A stretch of DNA of 64,000 bases. Origin: Arabidopsis thaliana (Eukaryota > Streptophyta > Magnoliopsida > Brassicales > Brassicaceae). The notes under the pieces were generated by a model that saw only the letters and a list, made by a program, of their open reading frames with translations, searched no databases and was not told where the DNA came from. This document shows positions 9,748 through 28,357 of the stretch, piece after piece (the stretch's first letter is position 1; every line of letters starts with the position of its first letter). The position numbers and the translations under genes were made by a program. Location of the stretch: positions 7,502,101 through 7,566,100 of the forward strand of contig NC_003074.8 of the NCBI RefSeq assembly GCF_000001735.4. The letters are read 5' to 3'.

Positions 9748-12700
9748 CTAACGAGCATCAGGGGTAGCTCCAATATCAAAGTTCATGCTGACTTCTATTG
9801 AACTCTCTGAGTTCATGTTTTGACTCGTTCCTCCTCTTGCGTTTTCATATGACAAACATTCGTTTAATTCGATAACAACTTGAGACATTGTTGGTCTTCT
9901 AGCTGAAGAAGGATTTAGACATGACATTGCTAGTTCAACTGCTCTCCAGACAGAACCAGAGTCATAATCACCATAAAGTTTTGGATCCATAATGTTTTGA
10001 ATGTCTCCTTTTGTAAGCATTAACCCCACCCATTCTGCTATATGTGGTTTTTCACGACTTTGATTGATCACAAGTTGGTTTGTGATGATCTCTAATAGTA
10101 CAATTCCAAAGCTATAAACATCACTTTTCTCGTTCAACCAATTTGTTCGGTAATATCTGCAAAATCAATATTTATCCTATTAAAAATAAAAAATATATAT
10201 GATATCCTATCAAGTGATGATACTCATGATAGATGAAAACTAGCAATTACCCTTAAAATAAAATTTAAAAGAAAATCATTGCCCAACAATTATGAAACTT
10301 ACTCTGGATCAAGGTATCCAGGAGTTCCAGCAACAACTGTTGACACATGAGTTTCTCCTTCAATTGGAAAAGATCTCGAAAGCCCAAAATCAGCTAGCTT
10401 AGCATGGAGGTGTTCATTCAACAATATATTTGTGGTTTTAACATCCCTATGAACCATTGGTGGTTTGCATCCATTATGCAAGTATTCCAAACCTATGCAA
10501 CAAATTTCATTTTCATCAAGGGTTAAGCAAATGAATAGAGGATACAAGCAAAAATTATATTAAAACTCATATCAAACCTTGGGCAGACTCGACAACTATT
10601 TTTAGTCTAGTTTCCCAATTTAGAATAGATCCACCTCGCTTTCCTACATTTGAATCAACATATAAATATGTGAAAACACCACAACAAATATGTATTTGTA
10701 GCAACTATAAATACTTACCTGACATATGTTCTCTCAAGTCTCCGTTAGCCATGTACTCGTAGATAAGAGCCAAGTTTTCTCCTTCATCACAATATCCAAC
10801 GAGGCCAACCAAATTTTTGTGGTGAACTCTGAGAAGAAGTTCCACCTAGAGGAGTGGAAGAGCAATACATCAAAATTTGACATGTTACTCTAATAAAACG
10901 ATAGTGTTTCTACAAACGTTTCTTAATAACCTTGCTAAAACTTACCTCTGCTTTGAATTCTTTATATCCTTGAGAAGATGAGTGTGAAAGCATTTTAACG
11001 GCTACTTGTTCAGTATTATTTACAGTTCCATGATAAACCATTCCAAATCCTCCTTTACCAAGAACTCTTTCAAAGTTATTTGTCATTGTTACAACCTCCG
11101 AATATGTAAATCTTCTGTTCTTAGTCATTATTGCCGACTCTGAAGATCTGATTGTTCTAACTTCTGATACTTGAGTATATGAAGATGGACCTAAATCTAA
11201 TGTTACAATGCAACAGTATAATGAGACTTTTTATACATAGTGAACATATGTATTGCAGTATTCAAGGCAATTTAAAGGTTCTTTTTGTGTATACCTTGAC
11301 TGTTTGATGTCTTTTTCTTTTTGAAAATAAAAAAGAACGCCAATGCAGATCCAAGAACAACCACAAACGCAACTGATGCAACAATCGGTATTACAACATT
11401 CATTTTCTTGGCACCACCATTGCCAGCTTTGTTTACACATAATCCATCCGGACAAATCAGATTGGCGTTTCCTTCAAGACTATGAGTTACCAATGTTGAG
11501 GAAAAAAAGAAATTTACCAGTCATTTAGGAGACTTGAGCACAAATTTTATATAGTCATGAAAATATTATATGAGAAAAGCTTACATTAGCTTTAGTCCTT
11601 TCTTCTGTAAAAGGATTTGAGGAATAGAGCCATTAAAATTGTTCCCACTTAAATTTCTGTTAAGATAGACACAATGTTAGAAACATAGGCAATCTTGTAG
11701 TGCGAAGAGGCTAATAGATTATAAAAAATTGTCTTGTTTAAAACGACTCACATTACTAAGAGTGATTTTATGTCAGCAAGAAATTCGGGTATTCCTCCCG
11801 TCAAATTGTTATTTGACAAGTCTCTACATAAGCATTTGTAAGTACAAAAATATGTTATAAACAAGATACAATTAAGGTGAACAAATAGTTTTCATTATGC
11901 TCAGTTTTGAAATACGAAATACTTACAGTTCTTGTAGGTGTGTCAGATTCTGAATGCCTTGCGCGATGATCCCCGTTAAATGACTTGACGATAAGTTTCT
12001 AAAGACATATTTATGCATGCACACATTTCATTTACAGATGATAAAATCATGTGACATAACTAATACAATAATTTAAGATTGATCTTACAAGGAAGTGACA
12101 ATAGGCGGCGTGGAGTTATCTAGATTATTGCAGTTTAAACCCTCCCACAAAAACTGTTTAGGAACGCATGGATCTCCTTGCCAGCTGATTTTACTTAATC
12201 CATAAGTGCTTTGGATACTCTTGATAGCAGCAACTAGAATAAAGTTATTGTTGCATCAAAAAACAACCCATGAAATTATATTTATAGAGGAAATTGATTG
12301 AAACATATAGACTTACCATCATCTGGATTTGTTTCCATCTGTGGAAAATCGATCACGGTGAAAACCTCAAGAGCGTTCATGAGAGGAGGAAGAGTAGACT
12401 TAGGTGTTTTCGTCAACTCCAAGAGGCATGTCCCATCTTCACATTGTTGTGGTGTCGAATAGAAAATGGTTTCGGTGGCTAACGTTTTAGGGCTGTAGCG
12501 TTCATAAGCAAGTTTTCCATTCAACGTCACTTTGAATTCTCGGGTATCGAGGGACCGTAGAGTTTGAATCTCGGCAAAATGCATGTACACATAAAATTGG
12601 GTTGTGGAAGATGGCAATAACCATGAGAAGTTCCATGTTCCAAAAGTACTTATAGGCGTTGAGGCTGACGCCATCACAACTTCTGGTGGTGCATAACCAT

Positions 12701-13837
12701 TAGAACTGTTTATATTCAGATTGGTTGTTAACTCTGTCCACTCTTTTGCATCAAAGAATGGATACCATTTACGATCATTGACATCATCAGGGTACCTATC
12801 AAAAATATTTTTGTCATGTATTAAAGACTAACATTTTACTTAAAAACAAACTTACTGAAACAAATCAAAATCCATATTAATAAACCAAGATGCTAGAAAA
12901 ATGTCTATACCAAATGAACCCAATCCGAGTTTTGTGCAACCAAAAACCTAATAAGTAATTATAATCTTTAAACTTCAATATATACACTAAATTTATTAAA
13001 GGTTTAAAACAAATAATCTTCGTTAAAAAGTTTATCCTAAACGGATCAAACAGAACCAGAAACCAAATTTTGTTCATGATTAAGTGAAAGGGCGTGATTC
13101 ATACCGTATGTTTTGGCCTGAACCGCTGAAATAATATCGGAAGAAATACTTCAGAGAGCCACTCTGAGTATTGTAAGTATTGTTTTTAAGTGGTCGTAGC
13201 TCTAACGTATTAATCATAGGTGAGCTTGTTCCTGTCTTAACAAGACAGACCTGGAGAGACTTAGATATGGTCTTGTGGATAATCTCCTGGATAGTACCAT
13301 TGGTCCGTCCATTCATATCAACCGTTACCCATAGATTCGGACCAAGGTAAAGATCGAAACTCGGGGGATTGTTAAGACCATCGTAGTTACCATACACAAA
13401 TACAGCTTTGATCAGATAGTTTGTGTCTTGCGTGACATTCAAGGTATAGCAGTTTCGGAATCCGTCCGGGAAGTATCTAAGCTTCAAAGACGGTTTACTG
13501 AAGATCGACTCGAACGCTTTCTGGATTCTTCCAGTTTTGCCACTCTGCACGAAACCATCGTCCGTCGAGTATGTTAATCCGGTTGAAGGATCGTTGTAAG
13601 GAGGCTCATTTGGCAATGACCCGCAATCCAAACTAATGAATCCTAGTAACACAAGCGAACAAAATGTATCAGAAAACTAAGTAAGAACATAATTTCGACG
13701 AAACATTATCAAAAACAACAAAGAAATGTGTATATGTATATACCTTTTTGGTCTTGTGCTTCAACGAGGTGTAAAAGAGCATAGAAAGAGATGAAGATCA
13801 ACGCACATAACCTAATTGCTTGAGGATGGTACTCCAT
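9748..13837 (-). CDS. Malectin-like LRR receptor kinase (LRR-I subfamily)
   Basis: Thirteen coding exons give about 897 aa: 13837-13744, 13642-13105, 12795-12317, 12233-12089, 11998-11927, 11823-11752, 11656-11585, 11479-11295, 11190-10946, 10845-10719, 10643-10578, 10492-10303, 10156-9748. Order: signal peptide (about 1-27), malectin-like ectodomain starting FISLDCG, the GDPCVP hinge near 390, three LRRs each encoded by a 72-base exon, a transmembrane helix (about 518-541) with a KKKK stop-transfer, and a Ser/Thr kinase. The kinase keeps GKGGFG (597-602), the VAVK lysine (618), HRD (Asp715) and DFG (Asp733), so it should be active. This is a plasma-membrane receptor of the MLD-LRR-RLK type; the ligand is unknown. 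All exon joins keep frame. I recall the locus as At3g21340. Confidence 0.92.
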
Positions 13838-15005: not shown

Positions 15006-16487
15006 ATGGATTCCTCTCTGCTCTCGGCGGCTACGGCCGATACCTTCAACGGCAATGCGGCGGATCAAATTCCTCCTCCGTTACAGCCTCCGGGAACGGA
15101 TATGACTGGAATTTCCTTCAGGGATCAGCTCTGGATCAATTCATACCCTCTTGATCGTAACTACATCTTCGATTACTTCGCTTTGTCTCCTTTCTACGAT
15201 ACAACTTGCAACAATGAGATTCTTCGGAGAAGATCCATTCACCCTCTCGATCTCTCTCACCTCTCGTAAGCTCCTCCTCACTGCTCTACAGATAGGGTTA
15301 TGTTGAAACTCATAAAGGTTTCAACTTTAGGTCGAATTAGGGTTTGGTCTCACCTGGGATACTGTTAGAGAAATGGAGATAGATTTAGGTGGAGAATTTA
15401 GTGACAATGTTTGATTGAAACCATTGTGATTATATTATGTAGGAAGATGACAGGTCTAGAATATATGTTAACTGATGCTACTGAACCAAACCTGTTCGTC
15501 TTTCGTAAGCAAAAGAGAGATGGTCCTGAGAAAGTCACACCGATGCTAACATATTATATCTTGGATGGTTCTATTTACCAAGCTCCTCAGCTTTGTAGTG
15601 TCTTCGCAGCTCGAGTTGTAAGTTTCTTCCTCTTTTGATTTGTGTGTTGCTGATGATAGTTGTCTGTTTTAGTTTCTGAAACGTTTTGTTTTCTTCTCTT
15701 TCTCATTTTGTATGTTTGAATCAGAGTCGGACTATTTATAATATATCCAAGGCTTTCACTGATGCTGCATCGAAATTGGAGACCATTAGACAAGGTAAGG
15801 TTTCGTTCTCTTCCAAAAGATCGATGGCTTTGTATGAAACTGGACGAAATATATATGTTGTTTGTATGAACTATTTGTAGACTTGCAAGTGTGCTTAGTT
15901 GCAATAGTCTTAAGTTTATCAGTTAACTTAGGAAGCTACTTTTTGTTGATTTTCAAGCTCATGGCCAATGGTGAACAAGTTTATGGCTTTAACAAGTTCT
16001 TGTGTAACAGTTGCCCTTTGCTGCAACTTGAGGTAGATAAATTACTTCATCAGTATTGTGATTTTTTATCTATATGTTCTAGTTGATACTGAAAACCAGA
16101 ACGAACCTGCTGAGTCGAAGCCTGCTAGTGAGACAGTTGATCTAAAGGAAATGAAGCGAGTCGATGTCATTCTTACCTCATTATATCGCAAGGTACATTT
16201 GTATTTGTGAAAAAATCTACTTACTGTATCACTAAAGATCTCTTGTTGGCATGACGAATGTTACTGACTCTACTTCTTATACTTCTCTTCTGATTGTGAG
16301 ACTTGCTTTTTTGTGTTGCGTTGTGCAGTTAGCGCCACCACCTCCACCCCCACCCTTTCCTGAAGGTTATGTTAGCCAAGAAGCATTAGGAGAAAAGGAA
16401 GAGCTTGGAACACAGGGAGGAGAGTCACAACCGCCTCAAGTTGATCCAATTATCGATCAAGGTCCTGCTAAAAGAATGAAGTTCTAA
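15006..16487 (+). CDS. MED6: Mediator head-module subunit 6
   Basis: Five coding exons (15006-15265, 15443-15617, 15725-15794, 16083-16192, 16329-16487) encode 257 aa. MED6 is a head-module subunit of the Mediator complex that bridges transcription factors and RNA polymerase II in the nucleus. The conserved core is visible: [24 protein letters not shown], then a hydrophobic stretch with [14 protein letters not shown] and a helix ending [10 protein letters not shown] run of prolines starts the last exon ([14 protein letters not shown]) and a basic AKRMKF ends the protein. The ATG chosen is the first in a short pyrimidine-rich leader and gives the conserved N-terminus. The 3' flank directly after the stop was copied in the adjacent duplication. 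Confidence 0.95.
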
Positions 16488-16655
16488 GCTCATCAAAATT
16501 GTTTCTTCATCTATGCATGTATAGAATTTTTAGGTACTAGCAAAGGCTCTTCTACTTTTTCGCATTGTTTAATCTGAACTCCTTACACAATTGTTGACAT
16601 GATTACTTCTCATAAAGTTTCGCATATGAAAGTCATCTCACCGCAACTACCTCAA

Positions 16656-16795
16656 GGTCAACTAAGCAATAATTGCAGCATGTATTTATTTCAGTATCTA
16701 TCATGTAGATGGCTTATTTTGGTCAACGGTAACTAGATTTGATCTTCTTGGCCAACTTGTTCAGTTTACTTCCTCTCTCTTCCCCGGCTATATAG
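16656..16795 (+). promoter_or_regulatory. Core promoter of peptide gene 1: W-boxes and TATA
   Basis: GGTCAA (reverse of the W-box TTGACC) at 16656-16661 and 16721-16726, and a TATA element CTATATAG at about 16788-16795, roughly 90 bases before the ATG. The same W-box positions are kept in the duplicate copy (17631-17636, 17769-17774). W-boxes bind WRKY factors, suggesting stress or immune induction; that is inference. Confidence 0.55.
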
Positions 16796-16883
16796 TCATC
16801 TTCACACCATGGTTTCAAGTTTCAACAGCAGCTAATCGGTTTCGTTCACTCACATTTTCATATTCATACATCTTAAAGCTGCG

Positions 16884-17200
16884 ATGAAAACCGGGTCAGC
16901 AAGGTCTACCATCCTCCTATATGTTTTATTTCTCGCACTGGTCTTGTCTCCAACACTTCCATGTCAAGCAGCTAGTGTCCCTCTAGGAGGTAAGCTAATT
17001 AATCTCTGAAATTTCTCCCATCTACTATCACTCTCTCTGTTTTGGTTTTTCATAGGGAGAAATTGATTTATTAATGGAAAAGTGAAGGGCGTAAGATGAT
17101 GGCGCCACCACCACCTATTCTCATGTGTACACAGTGTGCATGTTGTGCACCGGCTCCACCCGGTTCTTGCTGCCGTTGTGGCTGTTCTGGTGGTCCCTGA
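16884..17200 (+). CDS. Small secreted Cys-rich peptide precursor, copy 1
   Basis: Two coding exons (16884-16989, 17088-17200), 72 aa. Exon 1 is a clear signal peptide: charged MKTGSARS, a hydrophobic core and a likely cut near CQAASV. Exon 2 encodes a short mature region with a C-x2-C-x-CC-x7-CC-x-C-x-C pattern (Cys at about 49, 52, 54, 55, 63, 64, 66, 68) and a PAPPGS spacer. The intron 3' splice site must be the AG at 17086-17087: the AG five bases earlier (17081-17082), which corresponds to the one usable in the duplicate, would hit a TGA after five codons. I do not recognise the family; a secreted signalling or antimicrobial peptide is possible. I recall the locus as At3g21351. Confidence 0.8.
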
Positions 17201-17630
17201 AGACTCTGACTTATGCTATCCAATGTGCTATCCAAGGTCCTTAATTCCTTATAATATGTATGAACACGTAAACAAAAAGTGTATTCTGTGTTTTGAATAA
17301 TAAAACCTTTGGGTTCTGCTCAGTACTTATATGTTTATAAGTTAGTTTTGATGTCCTCCTTGGAGAGTTGATGAACTACTGTAAAAAATTAAAAATGTCG
17401 AAATCCTAGAGTTCACAACAATGTCGAAGTTAATCTTTCGGGTTATGAATGTAAAACCATGTTTACAATACATGCATCTTTGTTTGAAGTTTATAAAAGT
17501 CAGCTAAAAATGGTACAAGGTTATTTCTTCATCTATGCTTGTACAGAATTTTTAGGTGCTAGCAAAGGCTCTTCTATCATCGTTTAATATGAACTCGTTA
17601 CACAAAGTCATCTCATGCAAACTACCTCAA

Positions 17631-17850
17631 GGTCAACTAATCGCAATAGTTGCAACATGTATTTATTGCAATATCTATCAGGTAGATGGTGATATCAGAA
17701 GATAGTGTATATCAATTACCGTGTGAAATCAAAATATAGCTGCATCATCAAAACTAATGGCTTATTTTGGTCAATAGTAACTAGATTTAATCTCTTAAAT
17801 ATTTTATTGCTAAGTCCTCTTCTTGACCAAACGTCCCGGCTATATAATCA
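17631..17850 (+). promoter_or_regulatory. Core promoter of peptide gene 2: W-boxes and TATA
   Basis: GGTCAA at 17631-17636 and 17769-17774, an opposite-strand TTGACC at 17823-17828, and TATA (CTATATAATC) near 17840-17849, about 85 bases before the ATG. Two of the three W-boxes are retained from the ancestral promoter shared with copy 1; in copy 1 the third site has become TTGGCC. Confidence 0.55.
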
Positions 17851-17932
17851 TCCTCTCACCATGGTTCCAAGTTTCAACAGCAAATTGGTTTAGTTCAATA
17901 AGATTTTCACATTCACACATCTTAAAGCTGCA

Positions 17933-18260
17933 ATGAAAACCGGGTCAGCAAAATCCAACATCCTCCTATATGTTTTTGTTCTCTCACTTGTCTTGTCTCC
18001 AATACTTCCATGTCAAGCCGCTAGTGTGCTTCTAGGAGGTAAGCTAGTTATCTATGAATATCCTCCACTATACTGTATGTATGACTCTCTCTCTCTTTCA
18101 GTTTTTTAGAGGGATTAATGATTTTATTTTTCACTGAAAAGGTGGAGGGCGTAAGCTGATGGCGCCGTCACCACCAATTCGCATGTGTCCACAGTGTGTA
18201 TGTTGTGCACCGGCTCCACCTGATTCTTGCTGCCCATGTCGTTGTCCAGGCGGCGCCTGA
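17933..18260 (+). CDS. Small secreted Cys-rich peptide precursor, copy 2
   Basis: Two coding exons (17933-18038, 18142-18260), 74 aa, paralogue of the gene at 16884-17200. Signal peptide MKTGSAKSNILLY... ends near CQAASV; the mature part contains GGGRKLMAPSPP and then CPQCVCC, PAPPDSCCPCRC and a GGA end, keeping all eight cysteines of copy 1. The 3' splice site at 18140-18141 is in frame; a second AG six bases later is also in frame, so two products differing by two residues are possible. Function unknown. I recall the locus as At3g21352. Confidence 0.8.
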
Positions 18261-19870
18261 AGACTGACGTTTGCTCTCAATCAAATGGGTTATTTTGATG
18301 TGTTAAATATGTGTAATCTTTATAATATGTATATATAAGTAAATAAAAAGTGTAATCTTTGTATTGTGAATAAAATAACCTTGGGTTATGTTGAATAGTT
18401 TTACTATAAGCTAGTTTTGATAGTAACACACTTTTATACATTGTTTTCTTAGTTGGTGATAATGGGATCACAAAAGATTTGATATTATTTGGAAAGAATG
18501 TTTGACAAAAAATATTAAGAATAAATGATTCTTGTTTTTAGAAAATCGTGTGAAAAACCCTCTTCATTATCCCATAACCGATACGTATCATTTCAATCTT
18601 CATCTTCGTCACTTACTTACGAAATCTCAAATGACCTTTTCCCATTATTTTATGTTTTAATTGATTTGCATATTTGTTGTGTTGTGCATGTATATATAGA
18701 CTTGACTATAAGCATTTGAATGTAATAACCAATACTCACTTGTACATGAATTTTTTTTTATAGTTCTTCAAGATGACGAGTAAACATGTTTATTTTTGTA
18801 AAAGTCCACTTTGTACAGTAACACGCAGCCAAACAGCGCATGAGAAAAAAGAAGTAAAAATGTATTTTCCATCGTTCATAGTTCAAAGTAGAGTGTAGAG
18901 ATGTGCCTCTTCCGGTCCTATCACTGGTTTTGAAGCTACAAGTAAGAGATAACAAACTTTCATGAGTGTTACTACAGCGCCGTCATTCATCCGAAACTGA
19001 GATGTGAGTGACAAATAAGATTGATGAAACCACCAAAGTGGTGTCGTGGAGGAAGGTCTTAGCTCTACCACTAAGCCAAGCAAGATAGTCGAAACTTCAC
19101 ATAAACGAGTTAATCCGGTTGCGATGACACTTTTTTCTAAGAGAATTTGCTAAAACTCAAAGTATTACTGCAATTAATTGTCTTCTACACTACAAGACTA
19201 TATGAAGTGTAAAGTCTCTTGATTGAGTGAAAAAGTTAAAACTTGAAAAATTAAATTTTTCTTCGGACCAATCCTGAAAACGTGTTTGCGAAATGTTAAT
19301 ACATACGTGAGATCACACCTAGTTTTGTAGAAAATATATCAACTATATTTTTTCTGTGACAAAAAGTTTTATATTATATTAATTTGGATTTCCAAGTAGA
19401 TATGCAACTTTGACTAAAAAAAAATATAATTTGATTAAGAATATAATTTGCAACTCGAATATGCATTATTATAAAGAGTTCCTATTATCAACAATTGGAA
19501 AAATTCGCTATGAGTCACATGACAAGATCACAAGATAGCATACTTCGAGCCTTCAATTACTACAGACAAAAGTATTTAATAGTATCGTACCTTTGACTTT
19601 AAACATCCTTTGTATGTTAACAATATTACTGACGTCTTAAGATAATTCAAGAGTGGCAAAAAATCCATGCACAAAAGCTTTAACTACATTATCTCAAATT
19701 AAAAACAGGATTCAAACAACAACAAAAGTTGAACAAAAAGAGTAAAAGACCATGGGAAAATGTATTATTTTCGTCAATTCTTATCTCCTTATTTTATCTA
19801 CTAACATTCTATAAATACACACTTAGACATATAAGCTTATAGAAACCAAAAACCATACTCAAGACTCATT
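18261..19870. other. Spacer between peptide genes 2 and 3
   Basis: AT-rich spacer holding the exon-like relic at 18883-19149 on the minus strand. The right end is the promoter of peptide gene 3: TTGACT (W-box core) at 19593-19598 and a TATA element CTATAAATAC at about 19809-19818. Nothing else recognised. Confidence 0.55.
18883..19149 (-). pseudogene. Exon-like relic, possibly C-terminal fragment of an unidentified protein
   Basis: After an acceptor-like TTTTAG, an 88-codon frame on the minus strand stays open to a TGA at 18885-18883. Its composition is protein-like and GC-richer than the surroundings: GLVVELRPSS, TTPLWWFHQSYLS, ASKPVIGPEEAHLYTLL. No start codon or companion exon is seen next to it, and upstream in-frame stops occur before the putative acceptor. 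I cannot name the parent protein. Most likely a captured or decayed gene fragment; an unannotated exon is possible. A TGGCTTAGTGG sequence resembling a tRNA A-box lies within it but has no good B-box. Confidence 0.35.
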
Positions 19871-20288
19871 ATGACTAGCTCTATGAAGAAAATGATTCTT
19901 ATCATTTTCATCACAACCATGGTTTTATCTCCGACAAGTTTTATCTCTTGTCTCGCAGGTAAGTAAACTGCTTAGTTAACTGATTTAATTTGAGAATTTA
20001 CCTATCAATTTAGAGTTTTTTTTATGTATCTCTATTCGCATATGAAGATGTTCATGCTACTGAAAGTCCCACCGAACCAGCAGGCAAGAACATTGACAAA
20101 CCTCATCACTAAATAATCAGAACATTAATGAGAGCATTTTCAATATTAATTTATCTTATTTGTAAACATTTTTTAATGATTATTTTGTAGCCTCTCACGT
20201 TACTGGAGGTGATAAAGTAGCATGTCCTGCTTGCCGCTGCTGTGAAGGCCCAAAACCTCCACCGGGAACTTGTTGCCGTTGTTGTTAA
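19871..20288 (+). CDS. Small secreted Cys-rich peptide precursor, third member
   Basis: Three coding exons (19871-19958, 20048-20083, 20191-20288), 73 aa. Signal peptide starts MTSSMKKMILII and ends near ISCLA; a short Ser/Thr/Pro linker (DVHATESPTEPA) follows, then CPACRCCEG, PKPPPG and TCCRCC, the same C-x2-C-x-CC...CC-x-C layout as the two paralogues upstream. The second intron must start with GC (CAG|GCAAGAA) and end TTTTGTAG. If it is retained, translation reads GKNIDKPHH and stops, deleting the whole cysteine domain. Same strand and orientation as the other two, so the three form a small local family. Function unknown. Confidence 0.7.
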
Positions 20289-25479: not shown

Positions 25480-26377
25480 TGTTGATTTTTTTTTATAAGC
25501 TCACGAGTGTGTTTTTGGTCAAAAAGTTCAAAACAAAGTGGAAGACTATGTTGATTTGAAAGGAGAAATATCGTTATATATTTATAGATATATACATGCA
25601 TATATGCATGTACGTGACACCGATCAGGTGATGAATTTCAAAGCCCAAATTGTATTTGGAGGCCGCCAAGTGTATTTACACTATTACATGCAGATTGATC
25701 AGTTCTTGAAGGCCAAGTGTCTTTTTGTCACTCTCACTATTGCATGCACATTGTCAATTTTCTGTTATAGTCTCCTCGTTTTAAGGCGTGATATTCGCAT
25801 GTGTTTGTAATATTCGCATGTGTTACACATTATGTGTACGTCAAATAAATCTCACATCTGGATGTTAAGATTGAGTGTACGATTCTGTAGAAGCACAAGT
25901 GGATATTGAGACCAAGTGTTTGATATTTGAAGGGTCATAAGCGGATTAGAATTTTAATAAGTGGAACAATTATCATATAGAGTAACGTGTGATCTTTAGA
26001 TCCACAAGTTTGGGTTTGAGTCAGTCGCTATCTAAATAAGTCTCCATGTCTATATAAAAACGCACTTGCATGCATCAGTCATCACCACACCAACTCTCTC
26101 ATCTCTTTTTGTCAACAAAAAAAAAACACAGAAGTACGTACGTAGCCTCTCTTTCTTAATGGTTCACTTCATTATTTGCATTTATTATAGCGTTACAAGA
26201 AGTTACAACTACAAAAGGAAAACTTAATTCTCTTCACCCTTTTGTATATATTATTTTTCAGTTATCTTACAAGTATAATGAAAATGTTATAAATTTATCT
26301 GAAAAATGAAAAATGCATAGCCGTTTTTGTTTTTTTTAATGAAAAGTTTAACAACCGGTAAGATATGATCAGATACA
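25480..26377. promoter_or_regulatory. Shared divergent promoter region BGLU19/jacalin lectin with RY and ACGT motifs
   Basis: A perfect 20-base palindrome at 25593-25612 contains two RY elements (CATGCA at 25595-25600 and its reverse at 25605-25610) and abuts ACGTG at 25612-25616. Further CATGCA motifs occur at 25687-25692 and 25743-25748, and TGCATGCA at 26067-26074. A TATA element (TATATAAAA, about 26051-26059) serves the lectin gene. RY motifs bind B3 factors (ABI3, FUS3, LEC2) and with ACGT boxes define seed-maturation promoters. A 15-base direct repeat sits at 25791-25805 and 25810-25824. Confidence 0.6.
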
Positions 26378-28357
26378 ATGGCGGCCGCAACGATGTCTTG
26401 GGACGACGGGAAGCACATGAAGGTGAAGAGGGTGCAGATTACATATGAAGATGTTATCAACTCCATAGAGGCTGAATACGACGGAGACACTCATAACCCT
26501 CACCATCACGGCACTCCTGGCAAGAAATCTGACGGCGTAAGGGTTTAACAATGTTGTAAAACCTAACTTTTCACATAAAAGATATTTACATGAGTAGCAA
26601 AAAAAATAATCTGACGGCGTTAGCTAGTACTCTTCACGACCTTCTCCATATATACTACATCTTTCAATTTATGGATGTTGCAATGGGTTTAGTTTGGTCG
26701 GTCTCGGTCTTGTGGTCTTGACTCTTGACGGGTTGCCTTAGTTTGATTAACTGACACTTAATTACTAAATGAAAAGAAAAAATGATGGGTCCTGCTAGGT
26801 CTAATAATAGCATATAAAAATGAATTAGGGCTAGGAAAATTTTGGTCTACTATATTTTTGTTTATAATGATTTATTTATTGTATACTTTGATCGAACTAA
26901 TGTAATATATTTGTTTTTGTAGGTGAGCTTGAGCCCAGACGAGTACATAACAGATGTTACTGGCTACTACAAAACTACAGGGGCTGAAGATGCTATAGCA
27001 GCATTGGCTTTTAAGACCAACAAAACTGAATATGGTCCTTACGGAAACAAAACAAGGAACCAATTCTCCATTCATGCTCCTAAAGATAATCAGATAGCTG
27101 GTTTCCAAGGAATTAGCAGCAATGTTCTCAACTCTATTGACGTCCACTTTGCTCCCTTACCTTCCTCTTCGTCGTCATCGTCCAGTTTGAGTCAAGCCAA
27201 CAAAGTTGATGCTCAAGGTGGGAAAGGAGGAACATCATGGGACGATGGTGCTCATGATCATGTAAGACGAGTGTACATTGGACAAGGTGATTCTGGTGTC
27301 ACTTATGTCAAGTTCGAGTACGAGAAGGACGATAAGAAGGAATCACGCGAACACGGAAAGAAGACCCTTCTAGGAGCAGAAGTGGTGAGTATGTTTAGTT
27401 CCTTTCCTATATTATAACTAGAAAGTTCAAATCCGTTGTACTTTAGTTATATTATGACCGATCTTGCCAAAGAATTAACTTATTTGAAATCTCTGTATAG
27501 TTTGAGGTTGATCCAGACGACTACATCACATCAGTGGAAGTGCAATCTGACAGGATATTTGGGCAAGACACGGAAGTTATCACCTCCTTAATCTTCAAAA
27601 CATCCAAAGGGAAATTCTCACCGCCCTTTGGACTCGAGGGTTCACAGAAATATGAACTCAAGGACAAGAATGGTGGTAAACTCGTTGGGTTCCATGGGCG
27701 AGTAGGCGGCGAACTTCTTAATGCTCTGGGAGCTTATTTCGCTCCTTCATCCGGTCGTGGTACCCCTTCAGCCACTCAGCCACCTGGATCAGCTCAACCA
27801 ACTGGATCAGCTGGTGCTAAGAAACTAGAAGCAAAAGGTGGTAACGTGGGAAATCCATGGGACGATGGTCCTCATGAAGGTGTGAGGAAAGTGTATATAG
27901 GTCAGGGTGATTCTGGTGTATCATACGTCAAGTTTGTCTACGACAAGGACTCTAAGGAGGTCCCCGGAAATGATCATGGGAAAAGAACACTACTTGCACC
28001 TGAAGAGGTCAAATATGTATACACATAGAAGAACCAGCATATAACCTCATTTCTAAATTATTGTTTCATATTAGATTTTTTTTTTGTTTTTTTTTTTTGC
28101 AGTTCCTTCTTGAATATCCAAACGAATATATAACATCGGTGGAGCTTAACTATGACAAAATATTTGGAACTGAAGGTGAAATCATAACGATGCTTAGGTT
28201 CACAACGAACAAGCGAACCTCTCCACCTTTTGGACTTGAAGGTGCCAAAAGCGTCCTACTCAAAGAAGACGGCCACAAGATAGTTGGCTTCCATGGCAAA
28301 GCGGGTGCTGACATAATTCACCAAGTTGGAGTCCATGTCAAGCCTATTTCCAAGTGA
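26378..28357 (+). CDS. Jacalin-related lectin with three jacalin domains
   Basis: Four coding exons (26378-26536, 26923-27384, 27501-28007, 28103-28357), all joined in phase 0, 460 aa. Three mannose-type jacalin domains: the first begins abruptly at [10 protein letters not shown], lacking the usual leading KVEAQGG strand; the second at [16 protein letters not shown]; the third at [16 protein letters not shown]. Linkers are a serine run ([13 protein letters not shown]) and a Thr/Pro/Gly-rich segment. GFHG motifs mark the domain ends. No signal peptide, so cytosolic, as for PYK10-binding lectins. The ATG at 26378 is the first in frame; an upstream leader exon is likely. I recall the locus as At3g21380. 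Confidence 0.92.

Follow-up and report, generated by a model that had tools for sequence, protein, structure and literature searches.

Three short genes on the plus strand of an Arabidopsis thaliana stretch of 64,000 nucleotides (taken to be part of chromosome 3; NC_003074.8, positions 7,502,101 to 7,566,100; hereafter the window) belong to a family of six genes that encode small, probably secreted peptides rich in cysteine. The three window genes, numbered 1 to 3, run from a first ATG at 16884 to a last stop at 20288. Directly established are their gene anatomy, the family, the neighbourhood that its two clusters have in common, the constraint on its cysteines and an excess of W-boxes upstream. 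The family looks linked to plant defence, and we favor, with a probability of roughly 0.45, the possibility that its members are pathogen-inducible, WRKY-controlled apoplastic defence peptides with a cysteine framework of their own and variable loops.

In the scenario we have in mind, the signal peptide encoded by exon 1 would route a precursor made up of signal peptide, fast-changing linker and C-terminal eight-cysteine core (19-21 residues) to the secretory pathway, where it would be processed and secreted. WRKY sites would turn the genes on in the vicinity of attacked cells. The mature peptides, most of them cationic, would act in the apoplast as defence effectors, perhaps directly on microbes. 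Their working mode may be defensin-like, in that a presumably disulfide-bonded cysteine scaffold would show variable residues to a changing partner, but the peptides are not defensins. The genes sit in the best-studied plant genome and bear marks of immune regulation, and one member has been published under a poorly fitting label. Six genes in two clusters are few enough for a complete knockout, and the cysteine framework is unusual; mass spectrometry could tell a disulfide knot from a metal-thiolate peptide at infection sites.

Six genes in two clusters

The first-pass annotation of the window described three same-strand genes of 72-74 amino acids within 3.4 kb, and our models, obtained by enumerating splicing choices, bear this out, with 72 codons for gene 1, 72 or 74 for gene 2 and 73 for gene 3. 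All models have a phase-1 boundary at the end of exon 1, right after a signal-like hydrophobic stretch. Three more genes, at 19.293-19.295 Mb on chromosome 1, share this exon layout (c1a, 77 amino acids; c1b, 67; c1c, 78); all six have a phase-1 intron following the signal exon, and all six have the eight-cysteine core. Searches of the genome (119.66 Mb, seven contigs) with single proteins gave six family genes in all, such counts being lower bounds. We take the window genes to be AT3G21351, AT3G21352 and AT3G21355, and the chromosome-1 members to be At1g51913, At1g51915 and At1g51920, the names being assumed for each cluster as a set rather than gene by gene.

When a profile built from the six cores was run on 6095 stop-to-stop frames (the window and 129 kb of chromosome 1), it matched its own six training members at E-values of 1.1e-9 to 2.3e-5 and gave no further match below E=3 in those frames. 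Because the three chromosome-1 genes repeat the same anatomy and the profile finds only the six, the anatomy of the window genes is more than chance. In leave-one-out runs genes 1 and 2, c1a, c1b and c1c were recovered at E-values of 1.3e-6 or better; gene 3, when left out, was the best match outside the training set, yet at E=0.97. Used as a query, gene 3 found no paralogue in the genome, and searches with the other members did not find it. Anatomy and position are thus better grounds than sequence for counting gene 3 as a member. We dropped the possibility that it is unrelated and keep it as a weak member because of its tandem position, the phase-1 intron that follows its signal exon, and an eight-cysteine pattern like that of the others.

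None of the three window proteins matched a Pfam family at E-values up to 10, a range in which HMMER's filters drop most weak matches. The first-pass annotation had named a profile match to an already characterised peptide family as one finding that would speak against its proposal, and among Pfam families there is none for these three proteins; its family of small, probably secreted, cysteine-rich peptides stands. Its remark that the family was one it could not name holds for the most part, but one paralogue had already been published as AtAGP42. Its description of the family as local does not hold: the six genes fall into two clusters that have neighbours in common, and a Brassica rapa counterpart has been listed for At1g51915. 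The search of solved-structure profiles with a five-sequence alignment returned a single match, to a zinc-finger protein at E=1.9, which we take as chance. Among the literature matches listed, in the portions of the papers that were available, we found no publication treating the six genes as one family.

Cysteine framework and pattern of selection

All six members have the framework C-x2-C-x-CC-x7/9-CC-x-C-x0/1-C, with about 40% of core residues being cysteine. The terminal motif is CC-x-C-x-C in genes 1 and 2 and CC-x-CC in gene 3, and the spacer between the cysteine groups has 7 or 9 residues and is rich in proline. The pattern proposed earlier had the C-x2-C-x-CC group and the proline-rich spacer right, but its terminal CC-x-C was incomplete and missed the eighth cysteine. 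With an assumed cleavage site, each of the six mature parts contains exactly eight cysteines, an even number, and none outside the aligned cysteine columns. Near the N-terminus, starting at residue 8-10, every member has a hydrophobic 15-residue stretch with a mean Kyte-Doolittle (KD) value of 2.13-2.90 (cleavage sites placed by eye). Exon 1 of all three window genes is hydrophobic and of signal type, in agreement with the signal peptide predicted there by the first-pass annotation, and the peptides are, judging by their sequences, probably secreted. Net charge (K+R minus D+E) is 3 to 5 in five of the six mature peptides, again with an assumed cleavage site, and -1 in gene 3.

We next consider substitution between the paralogues, using Nei-Gojobori counts and defining cysteine columns as those with cysteine in all six. 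At core cysteines the 15 pairs had no amino-acid changes but 36 synonymous differences over 40 synonymous sites, which is near saturation. Outside the cysteines the core has an omega (ratio of nonsynonymous to synonymous change) of 0.67 over the 15 pairs, 0.89 over three disjoint pairs and 0.96 over the two tandem pairs, and in the loop between the cysteine groups it is 0.74-1.12. Cysteine and non-cysteine positions differ in nonsynonymous change, with Fisher p-values, on rounded counts, of 2.5e-7 for the three disjoint pairs (one of which, c1c with gene 3, is not shown to consist of sisters) and 0.001 for the two tandem pairs. The cysteines are constrained between paralogues, and the pattern is that of a structural cysteine scaffold, the remaining core residues varying almost freely. 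As regards the readings weighed below, it leans toward a cysteine scaffold with free loops.

Plant defensins and defensin-like (DEFL) peptides are likewise small and secreted, have eight cysteines, occur in tandem clusters and keep their cysteines while the loops change. Their cysteine-stabilized (CS) alpha-beta spacing, however, covers about 45-50 residues, whereas all eight cysteines of our family lie within 19-21 residues, with doublets and without that spacing. We rejected membership in this class, the spacing being wrong in all six and a Pfam match absent for the three window proteins. CYSTM proteins resemble the window peptides in being about 70 amino acids long with a cysteine-rich C-terminus, but in all six of our peptides it is the N-terminus that carries the hydrophobic stretch, the C-terminus being too weakly hydrophobic for a membrane span. 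CYSTM membership was rejected as well, since the six lack a C-terminal membrane module and the three window proteins gave no Pfam match.

Evidence for a possible defence role and competing explanations

The six 500-base upstream stretches contain 12 W-boxes as against 3.2 expected, a nearly fourfold excess that none of 200 dinucleotide shuffles reached; the stretches of genes 1, c1b and c1c overlap the coding sequence of the preceding gene. The window mean is 0.59 per 500-base bin (128 non-overlapping bins). GGTCAA lies at -139 to -164 in four of the six genes. Seven patterns were counted in all; TTGAC and TATA-like strings were also above the shuffles and the other four were not, with an AT repeat preceding a single chromosome-1 gene accounting for most of the TATA-like excess (30 of 41). 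Published expression data, as excerpted, concern individual members: At1g51915 is in a 56-gene group induced at downy-mildew sites, the distal response at 7 days being negligible (PMC4498041), and At1g51920 appears in the co-expression row of a thaumatin-like gene labelled abiotic/biotic (PMC3725900). AT3G21352, in the excerpt of PMC8417012, was picked as one of the genes most altered in MYB25-overexpressing plants (log2 change 2.9 in roots; RNA-seq followed by quantitative reverse-transcription PCR, RT-qPCR).

Several observations weigh against the defence-peptide scenario: (i) the mature peptide of gene 3 is not cationic; (ii) non-cysteine positions with Pro, Ala, Pro and Gly are kept in at least five of the six cores, as in a ligand motif; (iii) gene 3 and c1c are gapped in the alignment that defines the cysteine columns; (iv) the selection test covers six genes with 19-20 core codons per pair, the pairs overlap in ancestry and the genes are paralogues, not orthologues; (v) W-box counts of tandem copies are not independent; (vi) published induction, in the excerpted sources, covers single members only, and At1g51920 also stands in a nitrogen-transporter co-expression table, a non-defence context (excerpt of PMC5550703); and (vii) no antimicrobial assay, peptide detection or structure was found among the literature matches listed, as far as their available portions go. 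The fuller proposition, namely that these are defence-induced apoplastic peptides of the Brassicaceae with an undescribed fold (a disulfide knot rich in doublets or else a secreted cluster of metal thiolates) whose genes have stayed beside malectin-like receptor kinases in each copy of the block, is tentative and, on balance, doubtful.

We consider it unlikely, although a serious competitor, that the peptides serve phytocytokine-type signalling, in which the C-terminal core would be set free and recognised by a receptor at the cell surface, perhaps one of the malectin-like receptor kinases next to the two clusters. Phytocytokine precursors combine a variable linker with a conserved C-terminal part, and here too the linker varies more than the core (omega 0.45-1.43 where computable, as against 0.08-0.45 for the whole core), the difference in nonsynonymous change in the two tandem pairs alone not being significant (p=0.12). 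Promoters with W-boxes would suit such a role, and malectin-like receptor kinases precede the peptides in both blocks (identified by Pfam for the window copy and by similarity for chromosome 1). We take IOS1 (At1g51800) to be a gene of the chromosome-1 receptor-kinase array. In the available part of the source, its expression is raised in the downy-mildew data set that also covers At1g51915. Proximity to a receptor array counts for little, however, in a genome for which an excerpted source counts at least 223 leucine-rich-repeat receptor-like kinases (LRR-RLKs), and a core that is nearly unconstrained outside its cysteines in tandem copies (omega 0.96) is unusual for a receptor-bound motif. 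SCOOPs are not built on eight cysteines. According to partial sources, SCOOP and similar Brassicaceae phytocytokine precursors resemble our family in forming small multigene families that are secreted and defence-linked, but SCOOPs are serine-rich.

Less probable still is that the peptides are secreted metal-thiolate peptides, acting like metallothioneins in the apoplast and binding Zn or Cu that is set free or withheld in the course of infection. With its eight cysteines packed into 19-21 residues as CxxC, CxCC and CCxC(x)C, the core has a density and motif set resembling that of metallothioneins (CxxC, CxC and CC motifs at high density in all six), and so many vicinal pairs may be awkward for four ordinary disulfides. 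Yet the family has a signal-type N-terminus and a proline spacer, plant metallothioneins are cytosolic, and the oxidising secretory route favours disulfides. We rejected membership among the metallothioneins proper, no Pfam profile matching the three window proteins.

The published label raises the possibility, which we rate as slight, that these are short arabinogalactan (AG) or cell-wall glycopeptides with a hydroxylated and glycosylated APAP spacer. By its position on chromosome 1 AtAGP42 (At1g51915) would be a family member, most likely the 67-residue c1b, and it has the signal peptide, the short length and the APAP between cysteine groups. In the excerpts of the papers concerned, At1g51915 is published as AtAGP42 (PMC7769824, PMC5372829) and still stands among the Arabidopsis AG-peptides in the tree of PMC8658186, AG-peptides being defined as having 50-90 amino acids and at least 35% Pro, Ala, Ser and Thr (PAST) (PMC5372829). 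All six proteins fall within that length range, PAST makes up 31-40% of the whole proteins and reaches 35% in five of six, APAP separates the cysteine groups in four of six cores, and five of six proteins contain 2-3 AP dipeptides. Gene 3, however, has none, and no member has a strongly hydrophobic C-terminus of the type that signals a glycosylphosphatidylinositol (GPI) anchor (maximum KD over 15 residues after residue 32, 0.47-1.29), although some peptides filed in this class also lack the signal (PMC7769824, PMC5372829, in part). The B. rapa counterpart, BrAGP42 (Bra030409), has 30% PAST and no GPI signal according to the excerpt of PMC5372829, and was later dropped from the AG-peptides for low PAST and the absence of AG glycomodules, AtAGP42 being kept (PMC8658186, in part). 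Both were filed by composition, but the feature common to the six genes is the eight cysteines, not AP dipeptides. Selection keeps the cysteines while the loop between them varies, and the AtAGP42 label fits the six-gene family poorly.

That one or more window genes, above all gene 3, are decaying or spurious reading frames seems highly improbable: the model of gene 3 depends on a GC-AG intron or on exon skipping, and its match to the family is weak when it is left out, but all three have open frames, TATA-like elements and the eight-cysteine core, the core cysteines are kept in every copy, and AT3G21352, which we assume to be a window gene, was measured by both RNA-seq and RT-qPCR (excerpt of PMC8417012).

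Duplication history and gene structures

The two clusters look like copies of one duplicated block, judged over 129 kb of chromosome 1. Receptor kinase, peptides and jacalins follow one another in both. In the window a gene at 9751-13676 (minus strand), in which Pfam recognises malectin-like and kinase domains, resembles at least 8 copies at 19237410-19288230 (minus) on chromosome 1; the receptor kinases precede the peptide clusters by about 3 and 5 kb, one other gene lying between in the window. The peptide genes are on the plus strand in both blocks, after minus-strand receptor kinases. The window jacalin gene at 26290-28354 (plus; domain identified by Pfam in the one exon tested) follows the peptides, and similar genes follow the chromosome-1 peptides at 19333355-19360170 on the opposite, minus strand, which suggests an inversion in one block. 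The block duplication presumably derives from a whole-genome duplication common to the Brassicaceae. Bra030409 is listed as the counterpart of At1g51915 and has 77 amino acids, a signal peptide and no GPI signal (excerpt of PMC5372829), which makes it likely that the family predates A. thaliana.

Genes 1 and 2 share a tandem duplication unit that takes in the 3' flank of the preceding gene. The event has left a relic upstream of gene 2, where window positions 17521-17689 duplicate the 3' flank of a gene that ends at 16487. That gene, preceding gene 1, is presumably MED6.

Table 1. Window coordinates of the tandem unit, upstream elements and exons of the three peptide genes
Feature	Position	Strand	Remarks
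Tandem duplication unit with gene 1	16499..17352	+	matches 17521-18421 (gene 2), two pieces, 69 and 76% identity
Second W-box, gene 1	16656-16661		
W-box, gene 1	16721..16726	-	at -163
TATA-like element, gene 1	16789..16796	+	at -95
Gene 1 exon 1	16884..16989	+	signal-peptide-type, ends phase 1; hydrophobic 15-mer mean KD 2.45
Gene 1 exon 2	17088..17200	+	eight-cysteine core and stop
Further W-box, gene 2	17631-17636	-	
W-box, gene 2	17769..17774	-	at -164
Further W-box, gene 2	17823-17828	+	
TATA-like element, gene 2	17841		at -92
Gene 2 exon 1	17933..18038	+	signal-peptide-type, phase 1
Gene 2 exon 2	18148..18260	+	eight-cysteine core and stop
Another W-box, gene 3	19410-19415		
W-box, gene 3	19593..19598	+	at -278
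TATA-like element, gene 3	19810		at -61
Gene 3 exon 1	19871..19958	+	signal-peptide-type, phase 1
Gene 3 exon 2	20048..20083	+	36 nt, symmetrical, GC donor after; may be skipped
Gene 3 exon 3	20191..20288	+	eight-cysteine core and stop

For gene 1, one of the five acceptors tried gave an open splice solution, of 72 amino acids. Two of six were open for gene 2, giving 72 amino acids or, via the upstream AG at 18141, two more (74). The three-exon model of gene 3 encodes 73 amino acids, other acceptors of the last exon giving 67 or 64; its second intron (20083-20191) is of the GC-AG type with the donor AG|GCAAG, and in-frame skipping of the 36-nt exon drops 12 linker residues, leaving 61 amino acids with the same last exon.

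Past the chromosome-1 peptides lie a small gene that resembles RING-finger genes (L015 838-1293, minus) and a receptor-like kinase (L015 2092-3520, minus), both recognised by eye from their translations; we take the latter to be LYK3.

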